A stretch of 64,000 nucleotides of DNA, taken from Geothrix sp. 21YS21S-4. GTDB lineage: Bacteria; Acidobacteriota; Holophagae; Holophagales; Holophagaceae. Shown piece after piece: positions 27,643 through 36,314 of this stretch; the first letter of the stretch is position 1, and each line of letters starts with the position of its first letter. The DNA lies in NCBI RefSeq assembly GCF_030845995.1, contig NZ_CP132719.1, positions 1,116,001 to 1,180,000 of the forward strand. The letters run 5' to 3'. Both the position numbers and the translations under genes were made by a program. The notes below the pieces were generated by a model, which had not been told where the DNA came from, did not search any database, and saw only the letters and a list, made by a program, of their open reading frames with translations.

Positions 27643-28158
27643 ATGCGCTTCTTCCTCGCCGTCGTCCTTCTCGCCGCTTCCGGCCTCGCCGCCCAGGAGA
27701 CCACCGTCGTGGTGCTCCGCCACGCCGAGCGCCAGTCGTTCCTGGACCAGGATTCCCCCCTGTCCGACGCCGGGCTCCGCCGCGCCGCGGCGCTGCCTCC
27801 CCAGTTGGCGGGCTTCAAGCCCGCGGCCCTGTACGCCTCCGATCGGAAGCGCACCCAGCAGACCCTGGCCCCCTTCGCCGCGCAATCGGGCGTGGCGCCC
27901 CTGGTACGTTCCGCCGATGGAACCGAGGCGTTGGCGGCGGAGATCCTGCGCGAGCGACGCGGGCAGACCGTGATCGTCTGCTGGCACCACGACCTGGTGA
28001 AGAAGCTGGCGCGGGGCCTGGGTGTGAAGGGGCCACTGCCCTACTGGTCGCTGGATACCTACGACCGGCTGTGGATCATCAGCGTCCCGGCCCAGGGCGC
28101 CCCGACGCTGGTGGAAAAGCTCCAGGCCTCAGCGCCAGCTGCCGTCCCGGCGGCCTGA
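27643..28158 (+). CDS. Exported histidine phosphatase family (SixA/PhoE-like) protein
   Basis: A 171-residue protein with a short signal peptide (MRFFLAVVLLAASGLAA). The mature part starts with the phospho-His motif 'VVVLRHAERQ' (RHxE) and later has 'ALYASDRKRTQQTLAPF' and 'IVCWHHDLVKKLARG' with the second catalytic His. It is a compact member of the branch-1 histidine phosphatases and probably periplasmic. The substrate is unknown. It follows the aldo/keto reductase closely. Its last 30 bp overlap the end of the convergent amine oxidase gene. Confidence 0.88.
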   Translation: MRFFLAVVLLAASGLAAQETTVVVLRHAERQSFLDQDSPLSDAGLRRAAALPPQLAGFKPAALYASDRKRTQQTLAPFAAQSGVAPLVRSADGTEALAAEILRERRGQTVIVCWHHDLVKKLARGLGVKGPLPYWSLDTYDRLWIISVPAQGAPTLVEKLQASAPAAVPAA

Positions 28159-29736
28159 GGCCGCCAGCACTTCCTCCGCCGCCCGCAGGCCGTGGTCCTG
28201 GGCCTCCTCGAACAGGGCCAGGCCGCTGAGTTCCGTGTGGGCGAAGTGGACGTTCCCGAAGGGCCGGGCCAGCGCCAGGAAGGCGGGATCCCACATCAAC
28301 CCGGGCTGCGGACGGACCATGGCGTGACCCCACCGCATCACGTCCAGCCGCGCCACCAGGCCCTCCAGGTCGGGGTGGGCGGGGCGCAGGTCGTCCATCA
28401 CCATCCGGGCGCAGGCGGACCAGTCCAGGGTGCGGAGCCGGGCCCGCTCGGCGTCGCACTCCGCCCCCGCGAAGGGGCGATACCAGGTGAGGACCGTGGG
28501 GCCGTAGTCCTTCAAGCCCTGGTGCGTGGCCGCCACGTAGCCCAGGGCTTCGCTGTCCCGCAGAACGTTGTCCCAGGCGAGGGGGAAGGCGGCTTCCTTG
28601 GGCCGCGCCCGCAGCGTGAGGTTGGCCACCATCCAGGGGGCGTTGCGGATGCGGGCCGCGGCGGGTCGGGCCTCCGCCAGCCCCGCCACGATGTGCCGCG
28701 CGGCGTGCTGGGGACCGGCGAAGATCACCCGCTGCGCCCGCCAGCCCACCCGCCGCTGGTTCACCGCGTCCCAGGCCGTGACGAGGAGATCGCTGCCGTC
28801 GGGCCGGATGGCGGTGGCCACCACGCCGCAACGCAACCGGTCGCCGCAGGCGCGGCGGAGGTGGTTCACGAGGAAGCCGTTGCCCTCGGGCCAGGTGAGG
28901 AGGGGCCGCGAATCCTCGCCCGGGCCCTGCTTCCGCGCCGCGAAGTAGAACAGGCCCGCCCAGGCGCTGGTGGTCTCCAGCCGCGACCCGTAGTCGTCCC
29001 GGCAGGCGTAGTCCAGCAGCCAGCGCAGGCGCGGCGACGAGAAGCCCCGGGCGTCCAGCCAGGCGGCGAAGGAGAGCGCGTCCAGGGCCACCGCTTCCGG
29101 GGCGTCCGAGCACCGGGACCGGGGAATGCTGAAGGCGGGCCGGCCGGCGCGGTCCCGGAAGGCCGCCCAGCGGTCCACCTCGCGGAAGAAGGCGTGGTAC
29201 TGCCGCTCGTCCTCGGCGCTGGCGCCCGCCCGCAGGTAGAGGCCCTCCCACCACTGGCCGTAGGCGAAGATCCGCTCCTCCGGCGCGCGCACCGTGGCCT
29301 CCTCCGCGAACCGGGGCTCGCCCTTGGCGTCGAAGCCCTCCAGGACACCGCATTCCGCCAGCAGGCGCAGGACCGCGTGGTTGCCCTTATCCGGCACCGG
29401 CAGGTAGTGGGCGGCCCACGGAAAGGCGCTGACGTGGTTGCGGCCGGATCGGGAGGTGCCGCCGGGCTCGCGCTCCAGCTCCAGGACGCGGAAGTCGTCC
29501 AGTCCGCCGCCCGCCAGCCGCCACGCAGCGCTGAGCCCGGCCACGCCGCCGCCCACGACGAGGACGGACACGGGCTCGAAGCGCTCCGGATCCGGAAAGG
29601 CCCCGTCCCGGATCCAGTGGCCCAGCGCCACGTCCGGCCCGATCAACTCGCCCTGGAACGGGAACTCGGGCTTCCGCCGGCAGGCCAGGGGAACTGCCGA
29701 GAGGGCGCCCGCAGCGAGAAAATCGCGGCGCTTCAT
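28129..29736 (-). CDS. FAD-dependent amine oxidase-like flavoprotein (Tat/lipoprotein-type signal)
   Basis: A 535-residue flavoprotein. The N-terminus 'MKRRDFLAAGALSAVPLAC' combines a twin-arginine-like KRRDF motif with a possible lipobox cysteine, so it is likely exported folded. The FAD-binding 'VLVVGGGVAGLSAAWRL' follows, then 'LELEREPGGTSRSGRN' and a C-terminal 'GNVHFAHTELSGLALFEEA', as in flavin amine oxidases. In this locus polyamine or amine oxidation is a reasonable guess, since a spermidine synthase homologue lies upstream on the same strand. The start at 29736 excludes an upstream frame extension that is only repeat sequence. Confidence 0.85.
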   Translation of the reverse strand: MKRRDFLAAGALSAVPLACRRKPEFPFQGELIGPDVALGHWIRDGAFPDPERFEPVSVLVVGGGVAGLSAAWRLAGGGLDDFRVLELEREPGGTSRSGRNHVSAFPWAAHYLPVPDKGNHAVLRLLAECGVLEGFDAKGEPRFAEEATVRAPEERIFAYGQWWEGLYLRAGASAEDERQYHAFFREVDRWAAFRDRAGRPAFSIPRSRCSDAPEAVALDALSFAAWLDARGFSSPRLRWLLDYACRDDYGSRLETTSAWAGLFYFAARKQGPGEDSRPLLTWPEGNGFLVNHLRRACGDRLRCGVVATAIRPDGSDLLVTAWDAVNQRRVGWRAQRVIFAGPQHAARHIVAGLAEARPAAARIRNAPWMVANLTLRARPKEAAFPLAWDNVLRDSEALGYVAATHQGLKDYGPTVLTWYRPFAGAECDAERARLRTLDWSACARMVMDDLRPAHPDLEGLVARLDVMRWGHAMVRPQPGLMWDPAFLALARPFGNVHFAHTELSGLALFEEAQDHGLRAAEEVLAASGRRDGSWR

Positions 29737-31474: not shown

Positions 31475-31870
31475 TCATAGGGACACTCGCTTCACGCCGA
31501 CTTTCGGGAAGAAGAAGTTGAGGATCAGGCCCCGCCGCAGTCCGGTGGCGCGCAAGTAATTGAGGCACTGAGCGAGGTGGATGTCCTCCAGATGCGTGAC
31601 GCACTTCAATTCAACGATGACGCAGCCGACCACCAGCAGATCGGCGAAGTAATCCCTGGCGATCACTCCGTCGTACATGACCTTCACAGGATGCTGCTGC
31701 AGAACGGGGAAGCCCGCTTTCCTCAACTCGTGGGCGAGGGCGTTCTCGTAGACCTTCTCCAGAAACCCGCATCCAAGCGTGTTGCTGACCTTGAATGCCG
31801 CCCCGATGATGGCTTCGGACACGGCCTCCCATCCGCGTTCATCCGGGTTCATCTGTGGCAGATCACCCAT
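31475..31870 (-). CDS. GxxExxY family protein
   Basis: A 131-residue protein of the GxxExxY family, named for the motif seen here as 'GCGFLEKVYENALA'. The rest fits the family: 'EAIIGAAFKVSNTLGCG', 'LRKAGFPVLQQHPVKVMYDG', 'RDYFADLLVVGCVIVELKCV' and 'LAQCLNYLRATGLRRGLILN'. The 'D-LV---VIVELK' core resembles a PD-(D/E)xK nuclease fold, but the function is not established. The first Met overlaps the DUF350 stop. A second Met at 31850-31852 gives 'MNPDERGWEA', which is encoded by the terminal repeat. The gene fits inside the repeat-bounded cassette and is probably read with the host operon. Confidence 0.88.
   Translation of the reverse strand: MGDLPQMNPDERGWEAVSEAIIGAAFKVSNTLGCGFLEKVYENALAHELRKAGFPVLQQHPVKVMYDGVIARDYFADLLVVGCVIVELKCVTHLEDIHLAQCLNYLRATGLRRGLILNFFFPKVGVKRVSL
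31829..31858 (-). repeat. Terminal inverted repeat of the GxxExxY cassette (right)
   Basis: On the minus strand it begins CCACAGATGAACCCGGATGA and ends ACGCGGATGG. It is translated into the N-terminus of the GxxExxY protein. Confidence 0.75.
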
Positions 31871-32081
31871 GGATCGCGGCGGCGATGATGAGGCTGATGC
31901 CCAGGATCAGGGCGCCCAGGACGATGCCGAGGGCGACGTTCTGGTCGTCCTCCATCTCCTTGCGGAGGGAGAAGGGGAGGATCTTCACCAGGAGGAGCCA
32001 CACGAGGCCCAGGATGGCGAGGCCGAGGAGGGAGAAGACGGCGGCGACGAGGAGCTGGTGAAGCAGCGGGTTGGCGATCAT
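31863..32081 (-). CDS. DUF350-family small membrane protein
   Basis: A 72-residue integral membrane protein with two hydrophobic helices, 'LLVAAVFSLLGLAILGLVWL' and 'VALGIVLGALILGISLIIAA', joined by a short charged loop (PFSLRKEMEDDQN). The 'ALGIVLGALILGISLIIAAA' end is characteristic of DUF350. The biochemical role is unknown. DUF350 genes recur beside DUF4178 and spermidine-synthase-like genes in many bacteria, as here. GGAGG lies 8 nt upstream, and the ATG overlaps the previous stop as TGATG. Confidence 0.85.
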   Translation of the reverse strand: MIANPLLHQLLVAAVFSLLGLAILGLVWLLLVKILPFSLRKEMEDDQNVALGIVLGALILGISLIIAAAIHG

Positions 32082-32260
32082 CACTTGCCTCCGTGGAAAC
32101 CGTTGTTGTGCAGGAAGGTGCGGTAGGCGCCGGGGGTCTGGCGCACGCTGGGGGGCAGGTCCGCGCGGCGGTGCTGGCCGAAGAATTCGCGCCCGAAGAA
32201 GCCGTTGGCGACGACCAGACTGAAGCCGCCCGCGAGAAAGAGCAGGTAGAGGATGCGCAT
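32081..32260 (-). CDS. Small single-span membrane protein of the DUF4178/DUF350 locus
   Basis: A 59-residue protein, 'MRILYLLFLAGGFSLVVANG' followed by a polar tail with 'FFGREFFGQHRRADLPPSVR' and 'TPGAYRTFLHNNGFHGGK'. One N-terminal hydrophobic helix suggests a membrane anchor or an uncleaved signal. Both ends overlap neighbouring genes as TGATG, so it is almost certainly translated with them. I do not recognise a family. The tight coupling and the conserved-looking tail argue that it is real. Confidence 0.7.
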   Translation of the reverse strand: MRILYLLFLAGGFSLVVANGFFGREFFGQHRRADLPPSVRQTPGAYRTFLHNNGFHGGK

Positions 32261-34263
32261 CAGTCGTCGTCTCCCGAAGAAGCTCCCGCCGCGTAGGCGC
32301 TCTCCTGCCAGCGCCGGCTCTCAAAGGCCGCCATCCGCAGCGCCGTCACCAGCGGCACGACGAGGATGGCCACCAGCGCGAGGACGGGATAGAGCCAGCG
32401 CATCACGCCCTGGCGCAGCTCGACCTCGATGCTCCGCACCGGCGGCATCTTCCCCTCCCATTGGGGAGCCAGCCGCAGGACGTAGCTGCCGGGCGGAACG
32501 GCGCTGAGGAAGACCGTCTGCGTCTGGGCGCCTTCGGCCCAGGATTCGCCGCCGTCCACGCCGCGGTAGAAGCTCGATTCCACCAGGAACAGCTCCGCGA
32601 CGCCGGTGGTCTCGCTCACCAGGGCCCCTTCCACGCTCACCCAGCTGTTGCTGACGGGGGCGCGGAGGGTGAAGGCCAGGTTCCGGTGCCCCTCCTTGAT
32701 CTGGATGGGATCGGAGAAGTAGACGGGTTCGGGGGATTCGCCGGCCGGAGCCGGTCCCCGGGGGGAAGAGGGGCGATGGATGGTGTCGCCCACCTGGAAA
32801 TCGAGGCGGGCCAGGTCGTACAGATCCAGTTGCTGATGGAAGAGCTGAGTGCGGCGGTGGGTGGCGGATTCGGCCAGGACCAGCACCAGCAGCAGGCCCA
32901 GCGCGGCGACGGCCCAGAGCCAAGCTCGGCTCAGGGCGGGCTTGTGGGGGTTGGGCTGGAATGCCCCGATGCCGATGGGTGGAGGCGGCGCGCCGGGAAG
33001 CTGGAAGGCCGTCCACACCTCGCTCGGATCCAGGTAGGTGGAGAGGCTCCAGTTGACCTCCTCGCCGCCGTTGGGATGTGCCTGCCGCTCCCGCGTCAGG
33101 CTGCGGGGCGGCGCTACGAATTCCGAGACATCCACCCGCTCGCCCCGCGTCACCTGCCAGTAGAACTCGCCCCACACGCCCTCGACCACGGCCGACGTGT
33201 CCTGGAACCGCCGCCACGTCTCGTCCAGGGCCGACAGGTTCTTCTGTCCCCGCTGCGGCTGGGGGATCTCTCCGGCGGGCGCGGCGACGGCCAGGCTCCA
33301 GTGGCCCTCGCTCTGCACCAGCCACTGGAAGCCGTGCCCGGCGTCCAGGAGGAGGTATTCGTTCCAGGGATACACCGTCCCGTCCACGGTGCAGCTGCGC
33401 CGGAGCTGGCCGATGCAGATCACGCGCTCCCCGCGGAGGGTCCCTTCGGCTCCCAGGGGGATGGCCAGGCTCGCATGGGGGCGCTCCAGGCTCTTGAGGA
33501 ACGCCAGCTTGCCGTGCTCGGCGGACAGCAGGCTGCCGCAACTGGGACAGCCCACGCGGAGGGTCTGGTCCGGCGCCCGCAGAGCCAACGGCCCCCCGCA
33601 CTTGGGGCAGTTGAGGTTCTGGACCGCCACCGGGGGTGCCTTCCGGGTGCCCCCTCGGATGCCCAGCTCTTCCAGCGCAATTTCCCGGCCCACGAACAGC
33701 AGCGGCGGCTCCTCCCCGTAATCCAGGGTGGCGAAGGCGCCGCGGGGGCCCGAGAGGTCCGCGAAGCGATAGGTGGCGCCGGGTTCCACGGCCCAGGGGA
33801 TCTCGCCCTCGGCGCTGTGGAAGGCGGCTTCGCTGACTTCCACGACGGTCCACAGGCCGTCGGGTCCCAGGTCCGCGGGGGCGCCCGCCTTCAGCTCCGC
33901 TACGGGAGGAAGGGGACCGCGCGGCGCCTGGGCGAAGGTGAGGTAGAAGCGGCCCTGCGCCTCCGCCAGCCAGCCCCAGCGGCCGTCGTCCAGGGCCAGG
34001 TACCACTCGTCCCAGGTGCCGCCCAGCGGATGCTTCAGCTGGACGCGGCCCGCCAGGGTGAAGGCGCGTCCCGTCCACGTCCCCGTGGCCCCGAGGCCCA
34101 GGGGCGAGCCCGTGTCCACCAGCGCCGCCGCCTTGCCGAGCAGCTCCGGATCCCGGTCCCGGCGGGCGGCGAGGGCGTGGCAGTAGGGACAGACCGCGAC
34201 CATCGTCCCCGGGCGGAAGCTCAGGGGGGCACCGCAACTGGGGCAGGAGGCGAGGGCGCTCAT
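32260..34263 (-). CDS. Double DUF4178 zinc-ribbon membrane protein
   Basis: A 667-residue protein with two repeats of a zinc ribbon plus a DUF4178-type beta domain. The first ribbon is 'CPSCGAPLSFRPGTMVAVCP' ending CPYCH (7-29), and the second is 'CPKCGGPLALRAPD...CPSCG' near 219-245. Each is followed by a domain with 'GGTWDEWYLALDDGRWGWLA' or 'YPWNEYLLLDAGHGFQWLV'. Membrane helices lie near 445-465 and 635-655, enclosing an extracytoplasmic beta-rich region. The function is unknown. Such proteins travel with DUF350 and aminopropyltransferase genes. The gene lies 17 bp from the aminotransferase gene. Confidence 0.85.
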   Translation of the reverse strand: MSALASCPSCGAPLSFRPGTMVAVCPYCHALAARRDRDPELLGKAAALVDTGSPLGLGATGTWTGRAFTLAGRVQLKHPLGGTWDEWYLALDDGRWGWLAEAQGRFYLTFAQAPRGPLPPVAELKAGAPADLGPDGLWTVVEVSEAAFHSAEGEIPWAVEPGATYRFADLSGPRGAFATLDYGEEPPLLFVGREIALEELGIRGGTRKAPPVAVQNLNCPKCGGPLALRAPDQTLRVGCPSCGSLLSAEHGKLAFLKSLERPHASLAIPLGAEGTLRGERVICIGQLRRSCTVDGTVYPWNEYLLLDAGHGFQWLVQSEGHWSLAVAAPAGEIPQPQRGQKNLSALDETWRRFQDTSAVVEGVWGEFYWQVTRGERVDVSEFVAPPRSLTRERQAHPNGGEEVNWSLSTYLDPSEVWTAFQLPGAPPPPIGIGAFQPNPHKPALSRAWLWAVAALGLLLVLVLAESATHRRTQLFHQQLDLYDLARLDFQVGDTIHRPSSPRGPAPAGESPEPVYFSDPIQIKEGHRNLAFTLRAPVSNSWVSVEGALVSETTGVAELFLVESSFYRGVDGGESWAEGAQTQTVFLSAVPPGSYVLRLAPQWEGKMPPVRSIEVELRQGVMRWLYPVLALVAILVVPLVTALRMAAFESRRWQESAYAAGASSGDDD

Positions 34264-34280: not shown

Positions 34281-35438
34281 TCAGAGCAGGGGAAGCATGC
34301 GGTCCAGCCCTTCCCGGAAGGCCGCCTCACGCGTGAGCAGGCTCGCCACCAGGTGGCCACCCCCGGGCAGGTCGAAGAAGGAACCCGGATGGACCAGGAC
34401 CGAGGCCTCTTCCAGCAGGCGCAGGGCGCAGGCCTCATCCTCGTCCACGGCCGGGCGGCGCAGGAGGACGGACCACCCGCCTTCGACCGGCAGGCGCGAG
34501 AGGCGGGGATGGGCCGCCAGGGCCGCGTCGAGGGCCGCGAGGTTGGCGCGGAGTCGCGCCCGGATCTGGGCCTGGAGGCCCGGCGCCAGGGCCAGGAGGG
34601 CCGGCGCGGCGGCCTGGACAGGAGCGGAGACGGAGAGGTACTGGTCCGCCAGGAAGGCCAGGCCTTCCAGATGGGCGGAAGCGCCCGGTCCCCGAACGGC
34701 GATCCAGCCCAGCTTCAACTGGGGAAGGGCCGCTACCTTGCTGAGGCCGGACAGGACGAAGACGGGGCAGGGGGGAGCTGGATCCTCCAGCGCGGTGGCC
34801 AGCCGGTCCACCGGAGCCTCCAGGGCGTAGTCGGAGAAGACCTCGTCCACCAGGAGCGCCAGGCCGTGACGAGCGCACAAGTCGGTGAGCTCATGCCACT
34901 CCGTTTTCGACAGAAAATGTCCGGTGGGGTTGTTGGGGTTCACCACCACCACGGCCCGCGTGCGGGGCGAGATTGCGGCCTCCAGGGCGCCCAGGTCCAG
35001 GTGCCAGCGGTCGTGGAAGTAGGACGGCACGCCGCGGGCCTGGATGCCTTCCAGCCGCGCCAGCCATTCGAACAGCGGGTAGCTGGGGCTGGGCACCAGG
35101 ATCTCGTCGCCGGGATCGGCCAGCAGCTTGAACAGCAGCCCGTAGCCCTCGCTGGTGGAGGCCGTGAGGAGGAGGTCCTCCGCCCGGAGGCCGTGCCCGT
35201 GGTGGGCCGCCACGGCTTCCCGCGCGGATGCGGCGCCCTGGGGATCCGGATCGTAGGCGAGCACGCCGGGAGCCGACAGCGCCGCGCGGATCTCCGCCTC
35301 GGGATACGCGAAGCCGCACCGCGTGGGATTCGACACCGTCAGGTCGAGCACGTCCCGGCCCTCCGACCTCGCCCGCGCCAGGGCCGCCGACAGGGTGTTG
35401 GGCTCGAAACCGGCGGGCAGGCGCGACGAAAAGGGCAT
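34281..35438 (-). CDS. PLP-dependent class I/II aminotransferase
   Basis: A 385-residue fold-type I aminotransferase. It has 'LDLTVSNPTRCGFAYPEAEI' at the N-terminus, 'VVVVNPNNPTGHFLS' at the cofactor, 'LLVDEVFSDYALE' with the PLP-ring Asp, and the Schiff-base Lys in 'VLSGLSKVAALPQLKLGW'. The C-terminus keeps 'VLVHPGSFFDLPG', but the usual 'R(I/L)S' carboxylate Arg region is altered to 'LVASLLTREA'. Substrate preference is therefore unclear. It starts the minus-strand block leading into the DUF4178-spermidine synthase locus and may share its promoter. Confidence 0.88.
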   Translation of the reverse strand: MPFSSRLPAGFEPNTLSAALARARSEGRDVLDLTVSNPTRCGFAYPEAEIRAALSAPGVLAYDPDPQGAASAREAVAAHHGHGLRAEDLLLTASTSEGYGLLFKLLADPGDEILVPSPSYPLFEWLARLEGIQARGVPSYFHDRWHLDLGALEAAISPRTRAVVVVNPNNPTGHFLSKTEWHELTDLCARHGLALLVDEVFSDYALEAPVDRLATALEDPAPPCPVFVLSGLSKVAALPQLKLGWIAVRGPGASAHLEGLAFLADQYLSVSAPVQAAAPALLALAPGLQAQIRARLRANLAALDAALAAHPRLSRLPVEGGWSVLLRRPAVDEDEACALRLLEEASVLVHPGSFFDLPGGGHLVASLLTREAAFREGLDRMLPLL

Positions 35439-35636: not shown

Positions 35637-36314
35637 ATGGCGAAGACGCCCAAAGTCGCGGTGCTGCTGGCCGGTTGCGGCCACCTCGACGGCGCCGAGG
35701 TGCGCGAGGCGGTCCTGGCGCTGCTGGCGCTCGATCAGCACGGCGCGGCGTTCCAGTGCATCGCGCCCAACGCGGACCAGTACCACGTCGTCAACCACGC
35801 CACGGGGCAGCCGGTTCCCGGTGCCGCCCGCAACATCCTGGAAGAGGCCAGCCGCATCGCGCGGATGGGCGAGTGCCTGGATCTCGCCCGCGCCGATCCC
35901 GGCGACTACGACGCCCTCGTGATGCCCGGCGGGTACGGCGTCGCCAAGAACCACTGCACTTTCGCGCTCAAGGGCGCCGAAGCGGAGGTGCGCCCGGACG
36001 TGGCGGCCTTCGTCCGCGCCTTCTTCGATGCCAAGAAGCCCGTGGGGGCCATCTGCATCGCGCCCGCCCTGGTGGCGCTCGTCCTGTCCCGGGACGCGCC
36101 GGTGGACCTCACCCTGGGCATGGATCCCGGTTCCGCCGCCGCGGTGCAGGCCCTGGGCCACCGCCACATCGCCACGCCCAACGCCCGGGAGATCGTCGTG
36201 GACGAGGGCCGCAAGCTGATCACCACGCCCGCCTACATGTTCGACGACGCCCGGCTGGGGGATGTGTGGATTGGAATCGAACGCTGCGTGAATGAAGTTC
36301 TCAAGCGCTGCTGA
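35637..36314 (+). CDS. elbB: ElbB-type glyoxalase (DJ-1/PfpI superfamily)
   Basis: A 225-residue ElbB homologue. It starts 'VAVLLAGCGHLDGAEVREAV' and has 'CIAPNADQYHVVNHATGQP', 'ILEEASRIARMGECLDLA', 'DALVMPGGYGVAKN' and the nucleophile elbow with Cys in 'KPVGAICIAPALVALVL'. E. coli ElbB is described as a class of glyoxalase that hydrates methylglyoxal-like aldehydes. The ATG at 35637 has GGAG 7 nt upstream. Its last codons ('GIERCVNEVLKRC') lie inside the first unit of a triplicated 128-bp sequence, so the C-terminal coding end is copied twice downstream. Confidence 0.92.
   Translation: MAKTPKVAVLLAGCGHLDGAEVREAVLALLALDQHGAAFQCIAPNADQYHVVNHATGQPVPGAARNILEEASRIARMGECLDLARADPGDYDALVMPGGYGVAKNHCTFALKGAEAEVRPDVAAFVRAFFDAKKPVGAICIAPALVALVLSRDAPVDLTLGMDPGSAAAVQALGHRHIATPNAREIVVDEGRKLITTPAYMFDDARLGDVWIGIERCVNEVLKRC

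Follow-up and report, generated by a model that had tools for sequence, protein, structure and literature searches.

A small membrane protein with an invariant C-terminal lysine in a Geothrix aminopropyltransferase operon: a candidate site for aminopropylation

What is the function of a 59-amino acid (aa) protein that is encoded, with overlapping start and stop codons on both sides, beside a membrane-bound polyamine aminopropyltransferase (APT)? The question is raised by a 64,000-nucleotide stretch of Geothrix sp. 21YS21S-4 (contig NZ_CP132719.1, positions 1,116,001 to 1,180,000; hereafter the window, whose own coordinates are used below), in which the genes of a DUF4178 protein, the small protein and a DUF350 protein are followed by those of the APT and of a flavin adenine dinucleotide (FAD)-dependent amine oxidase-like protein. 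The C-terminal lysine is the sole residue of the small protein that is invariant across distant loci. This lysine is the central feature of the locus and was overlooked in an earlier sequence-only reading of the same DNA. We tentatively propose, short of calling it probable, that the APT, together with the S-adenosylmethionine (AdoMet) decarboxylase SpeD, adds an aminopropyl group to the lysine at the C-terminus of this small membrane-anchored protein. The features of the locus are:

32260..34263, minus strand: DUF4178 protein, 667 aa, with two zinc-ribbon/DUF4178 repeats, a transmembrane (TM) helix at about 441-468, a beta-sandwich domain at about 470-620 and a TM helix at about 624-653
32081..32260, minus strand: 59-aa membrane protein with a single N-terminal hydrophobic helix and a tail ending in NNGFHGGK
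32084..32092, minus strand: codons GGA GGC AAG of the C-terminal Gly-Gly-Lys
31863..32081, minus strand: short DUF350 (YjfL-type) membrane protein, 72 aa
29909..31447, minus strand: polyamine APT with seven TM helices (PRK03612), 512 aa, catalytic aspartates retained
28129..29736, minus strand: FAD-dependent amine oxidase-like protein, 535 aa, with a twin-arginine translocation (Tat) signal and a lipobox (MKRRDFLAAGALSAVPLAC)
31475..31870, minus strand: GxxExxY/PDDEXK_3 gene, a variable insertion outside the operon core

Is the small open reading frame (ORF) a gene at all? The three-gene unit and the TGATG stop/start overlap at both of its junctions (DUF4178/59-aa and 59-aa/DUF350) were confirmed by the gene calls and by direct reading of the minus strand. 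The overlap had been taken to imply a stoichiometric membrane complex, which goes beyond the evidence; gene overlap suggests translational coupling and is no proof of stoichiometry. The middle protein is, as had been described, small and unnamed with one hydrophobic helix, and no family was found for it in Pfam or NCBIfam; the FFGREFFGQ stretch that had been taken for its tail lies midway along the sequence, and what is conserved at the C-terminus is GFHGGK. The ORF retains 90-93% identity over all 59 residues in 12 other Geothrix genomes, compared with 73-79% for the DUF4178 protein. Among Geothrix-like relatives the ratio of nonsynonymous to synonymous substitution rates (dN/dS) is 0.07-0.12, and third codon positions hold 255 of the 345 differences. 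A chance ORF is ruled out by the dN/dS and the conservation; judged by its pattern of substitution, the small ORF is a real gene.

The position after the DUF4178 gene (the slot) is occupied in every fully covered DUF4178-DUF350/APT locus from Acidobacteriota, Planctomycetota, Gemmatimonadota and Proteobacteria. The occupant has a hydrophobic segment at its N-terminus in other Acidobacteriota, in Planctomycetota (loci L080 and L083) and Gemmatimonadota (L092), in a deltaproteobacterial metagenome-assembled genome (L082), and on alpha-, beta- and gammaproteobacterial plasmids (L093-L097). In its TM form the slot protein is 48 to 88 aa long, and its sequence mostly drifts between loci. DUF4247 may occupy the same slot in actinobacterial loci. 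The sequence-only reading had made its case depend on the small ORF recurring in other DUF4178-DUF350 genomes, and the ORF was found conserved wherever the locus is complete; the link that it drew with the membrane aminopropyltransferase and the FAD amine oxidase also holds, recurring in several phyla.

What is kept when the rest of the sequence drifts? The endings of the slot proteins include GFHGGK, GFRGGK, GYRSGK, YWTGGK, GGPESGK, TGPSHK, YGSHK and SNRVK. Most of the tail varies between the 26 divergent loci, yet all 26 proteins finish with lysine; glycine precedes it in 22, and glycine or serine stands third from the end in 22. Early loci had been gathered with a filter for a GK ending, and therefore a prediction was recorded first and slots were then read with no filter on the C-terminus. 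For this purpose the APT was used as a query against 396 Acidobacteriota genomes, and 28 regions around matches in previously unused genomes were taken. In each of the 23 covered regions, lysine is the last residue of the slot ORF that has a hydrophobic segment; the contigs of three of these regions were already in another collection (L158, L160 and L182, equal to L078, L076 and L084). Four of the five remaining regions (L163, L168, L177 and L178) are cut by contig ends, and the fifth (L173) has neither DUF350 nor DUF4178 near the APT.

The same ending was observed on proteins of a different kind. Two genomes (G008 and G172; loci L121 and L122) have the APT without a long DUF4178 protein. In their operons a short DUF4178-like protein is accompanied by a lipoprotein (236 or 243 aa), a long DUF350 protein and the APT, with CesT/Tir and PspA genes next in G008. 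The two slot lipoproteins end in SRGFSSGK and SRSGRGGK, respectively, and a 510-aa lipoprotein in the slot of Alteromonas (L096) ends in NRGPSSGK. Because these unrelated slot lipoproteins carry -GK too, the ending is found on proteins without other visible similarity, which is a stronger line of evidence than the tail counts of the TM form. A plasmid search for further lipoprotein-type loci with a short DUF4178 gave no match.

Could the lysine be conserved for the sake of its codons? In Geothrix the tail codons GGA GGC AAG place GGAGG shortly before the overlapping DUF350 start, as they do in many relatives, and this GGAGG may double as the DUF350 ribosome-binding site. Lysine conservation would then be a by-product of GGA GGN AAR codons that provide the next gene with its Shine-Dalgarno sequence and overlap, an explanation to which we give very little credence. 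The lysine is retained where the next start does not overlap and lies 12 to 101 bases away (e.g., L021, L092, L093, L095, L100, L101 and L121), where Gly-Gly has been lost (GSHK, PSHK, NRVK, YYHK and RHGK), and where speD or the APT gene rather than DUF350 comes next; moreover, both AAA and AAG encode it. The codon and next-gene evidence thus rules out a Shine-Dalgarno artefact for the lysine. As a partial explanation of Gly-Gly it stays, and this part of the tail may partly reflect a nucleotide constraint.

Which enzyme could act on such a lysine? The APT scores 659.5 bits against NF002956/PRK03612 (cut-off 472) over residues 10-511. Five aspartates (D302, D324, D356 and the catalytic D375 and D378) are invariant in 28 sequences and align with 1uir, and the GGGDG motif is kept. 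The AlphaFold model (predicted local distance difference test score 90) has seven TM helices, and its catalytic domain matches 1uir best among solved structures (Z 35.9, 1.9 Å over 274 residues, 32% identity). Lysine plus arginine counts are 3.1, 3.8 and 3.2 in loops 2-3, 4-5 and 6-7, versus 0.1, 0.6 and 1.6 in the other loops; these positive-inside counts predict that the catalytic domain lies outside the cytoplasm. The loop charges of the APT, the C-termini of the slot lipoproteins and the Tat signal and lipobox of the oxidase agree in predicting a reaction on the periplasmic face. The earlier suggestion of an envelope-associated amine-modifying system fits the Tat-lipoprotein oxidase, the slot lipoproteins found elsewhere and the predicted periplasmic APT domain.

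An aminopropyltransferase requires decarboxylated AdoMet, and the gene of AdoMet decarboxylase, speD, keeps company with the APT. It adjoins DUF4178 in most non-Holophagaceae Acidobacteriota loci and lies downstream of the oxidase gene in Novosphingobium. Among Acidobacteriota, speD is present in 37 of the 38 genomes with the APT versus 27 of the 161 without it (P ~ 1e-21, Fisher's test, uncorrected for relatedness). The sole APT genome without speD (G016) has its APT at a contig end, and G040, the Geothrix genome in which an initial survey found no APT, is missing speD too.

In the proposed mechanism, SpeD makes decarboxylated AdoMet, the donor of the APT, and the APT would move the aminopropyl group onto the terminal lysine, giving a spermidine-like side chain, -(CH2)4-NH-(CH2)3-NH2. 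The modified tail would be a polyamine-like cation at the periplasmic face of the membrane. The DUF350 and DUF4178 proteins would serve as membrane scaffold or partners, and, in loci that have it, the Tat-exported FAD oxidase would provide an optional later or reversing step by removing or further converting the added amine. The two putative partners were assigned by Pfam: DUF4178 matches in two copies (98.9 bits, cut-off 25), and DUF350 (PF03994) scores 47.1 bits (gathering cut-off 26) at profile positions 2-66 of 133 alone, hence the short form. A fold search with the DUF4178 model returned for residues 470-620 just generic beta-sandwich matches of middling Z, from which no inference was drawn.

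Several points weigh against aminopropylation of the lysine. The APT may have a free polyamine as acceptor, putrescine or agmatine, since the closest solved structure is a Thermus free-polyamine enzyme and Geothrix carries SpeA-like and agmatinase-family genes. The window genome encodes no PF01564 protein besides the membrane APT, which could therefore simply be the spermidine synthase of the cell. Decarboxylated AdoMet is a cytoplasmic metabolite, and we can only speculate that a periplasmic active site would be supplied with it through the 7-TM domain. Taken by itself, the positive-inside rule leaves the orientation of the small protein of Geothrix ambiguous, and 7-TM APT genes without a slot protein exist (G077/L120, G378/L173 and L128). 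Finally, the Gly-Gly codons act as the Shine-Dalgarno sequence in many loci, so that only the lysine is clean evidence.

In the main rival, the APT and SpeD would produce spermidine or aminopropylagmatine as a free polyamine at the membrane, and the small protein would be an accessory subunit that stays unmodified; its C-terminal Gly-Lys would be a signal by which it docks with, or is retained by, DUF350, DUF4178 or the APT. This is possible, and we consider it rather unlikely. It gains from the score of the APT as a polyamine aminopropyltransferase, from its structural closeness to agmatine/triamine aminopropyltransferase, and from the SpeA-like and agmatinase-family genes retained in Geothrix, with no other aminopropyltransferase in the window genome. 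With these genes present in Geothrix, a missing putrescine route is unsupported as an argument for a protein acceptor. However, a tail that recurs on proteins which are otherwise unrelated and range from 48 to 510 aa suits a modification site at least equally well, a second AdoMet decarboxylase is encoded outside the operon in some genomes (G066, G141 and G143), and a docking role needs no donor enzymes within the same operon.

The oxidase scores 49 bits against flavin amine oxidase (PF01593, gathering cut-off 19.8) and, with few exceptions across the loci, carries the Tat motif and lipobox. Where the slot holds the small TM form, its gene mostly comes after that of the APT, which favors another view of the lysine, namely as the site of a different chemistry, such as direct amine oxidation by the FAD oxidase (lysyl-oxidase-like) or the attachment of some other group. 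We regard this as improbable. In five loci (L095, L096, L097, L121 and L122) no oxidase was detected near the operon, yet the lysine tail is kept and the APT is present in all five; furthermore, the oxidase has no close solved relative.

How does the operon compare with known systems? Group 2 of Ravi et al. 2024 (PMC11237479) is a PspA-CesT/Tir-associated operon with a 7TM spermidine synthase, YjfL/DUF350, DUF4178 and the "Ctha_1186" lipoprotein, for which a general suggestion only was made, "aminopropylation of other substrates"; lysine is not mentioned in the main text of that paper. The window operon likewise unites a 7-TM APT, DUF350, DUF4178 and an envelope protein in the same slot, and G008 and G172 resemble the group 2 arrangement, with lipoproteins ending in -SSGK and -RGGK. 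The window operon differs in that a 59-aa TM protein, which has no lipobox cysteine, replaces the Ctha_1186 lipoprotein in the slot, its DUF350 is of the short form, an FAD oxidase is added, and the genes identified between 28.1 and 36.3 kb include no adjacent CesT/Tir-PspA dyad.

A second comparison is offered by yjfIJKLMC and ygiBC of E. coli, whose YjfC and YgiC are annotated as peptide-spermidine ligases (Pederick et al. 2023, as cited in PMC10948618 and PMC12568646). Like the window operon, these systems involve polyamine chemistry and a partner, membrane protein or lipoprotein, whose tail is Gly-rich; the yjf operon also encodes a DUF350 protein. They use an ATP-grasp ligase, whereas the window operon has an aminopropyltransferase; no ATP-grasp ligase was found among the window operon genes, and an E. 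coli YjfC query found none in related loci. The window partner is not a DUF1190 protein and ends in Gly-Gly-Lys, whereas YjfM and YgiB, the neighbors of YjfC and YgiC, end in Gly-Gly. Among DUF1190 partners beside ATP-grasp peptide-spermidine ligases, 8/10 end in -GG and 0/10 in lysine; the DUF1190 proteins may be the ligase substrates. Their Gly-Gly end usually comes after a Gly/Ser/Arg-rich stretch with RGGFG-like motifs (L144-L150, L153, L118 and L119). Ligase operons thus pair with a free Gly-Gly carboxylate that could accept a polyamine by ligation; transferase operons pair with Gly-Gly-Lys, and there an aminopropyl unit could extend the amine of the side chain. By this analogy, both kinds of operon would yield a tail with a polyamine-like group.

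In the silaffins of diatoms, lysine side chains carry aminopropyl units (PMC3820600). The silaffins resemble the proposed product in this respect and in that AdoMet decarboxylase and an aminopropyltransferase are implicated; they differ in being eukaryotic, secreted biomineral peptides with many internal lysines. The triamine/agmatine aminopropyltransferase SpeE of Thermus thermophilus (1uir, 3anx) shares the catalytic domain fold of the APT, but the solved protein has no 7-TM domain and its substrates are free polyamines.

The surroundings of the operon and of its homologs show further variation. A class I/II aminotransferase gene (window 34281-35438) lies on the same strand 17 bp upstream of DUF4178; it is retained in Holophagaceae loci (60-85% identity) and was not found beside DUF4178 in the other loci tested, and it may share a transcript with DUF4178 in Holophagaceae alone. 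An ElbB-type isoprenoid biosynthesis glyoxalase gene (window 35637-36314, plus strand) is near the upstream end of the operon. The GxxExxY (PDDEXK_3) gene, passed over in the sequence-only reading and present in some Geothrix only, overlaps the end of DUF350 and sits between DUF350 and the APT, with CGCGGATGG/ACACGGATGG repeats at its 3' end. At the same site G. fermentans has a DUF4268 gene (L004:3994-4962) and other Geothrix have nothing, so the site seems to accept insertions, and GxxExxY was ruled out as a system component. In one genome (G356:C85:34687-36192) the APT was reported with one internal TAA stop, which may be a sequencing error or mark a decayed gene, and the slot protein is intact (L170). 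Three 7-TM APT genes (L120:7000-10237, L173 and L128:6001-7521) have no DUF350, DUF4178 or lysine-tailed protein nearby, and in L120 the FAD oxidase still comes after the APT. Viral contigs gave one full-length APT without partners (L128) plus partial matches. Near the speD of another genome (L116:7073-11959) there are several O6-methylguanine-DNA methyltransferase-like ORFs, two with the active-site cysteine motif PCHRV and one with PSHRV instead.

This operon type was already known in outline (PMC11237479), and the finding is in that part not new. No description of the lysine tail was found in the literature searched, most subscription papers being outside the search. What appears to be new is the family of small proteins, the C-terminal lysine that is invariant in it and shared with lipoproteins, and a concrete substrate hypothesis. 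If the proposal is true, the polyamine genes that recur in envelope-stress operons without a known acceptor would have a substrate specific to one residue, and C-terminal lysine aminopropylation would join the bacterial protein modifications. The roles of DUF350, DUF4178 and the membrane spermidine synthases would then reduce to a single question for mass spectrometry.

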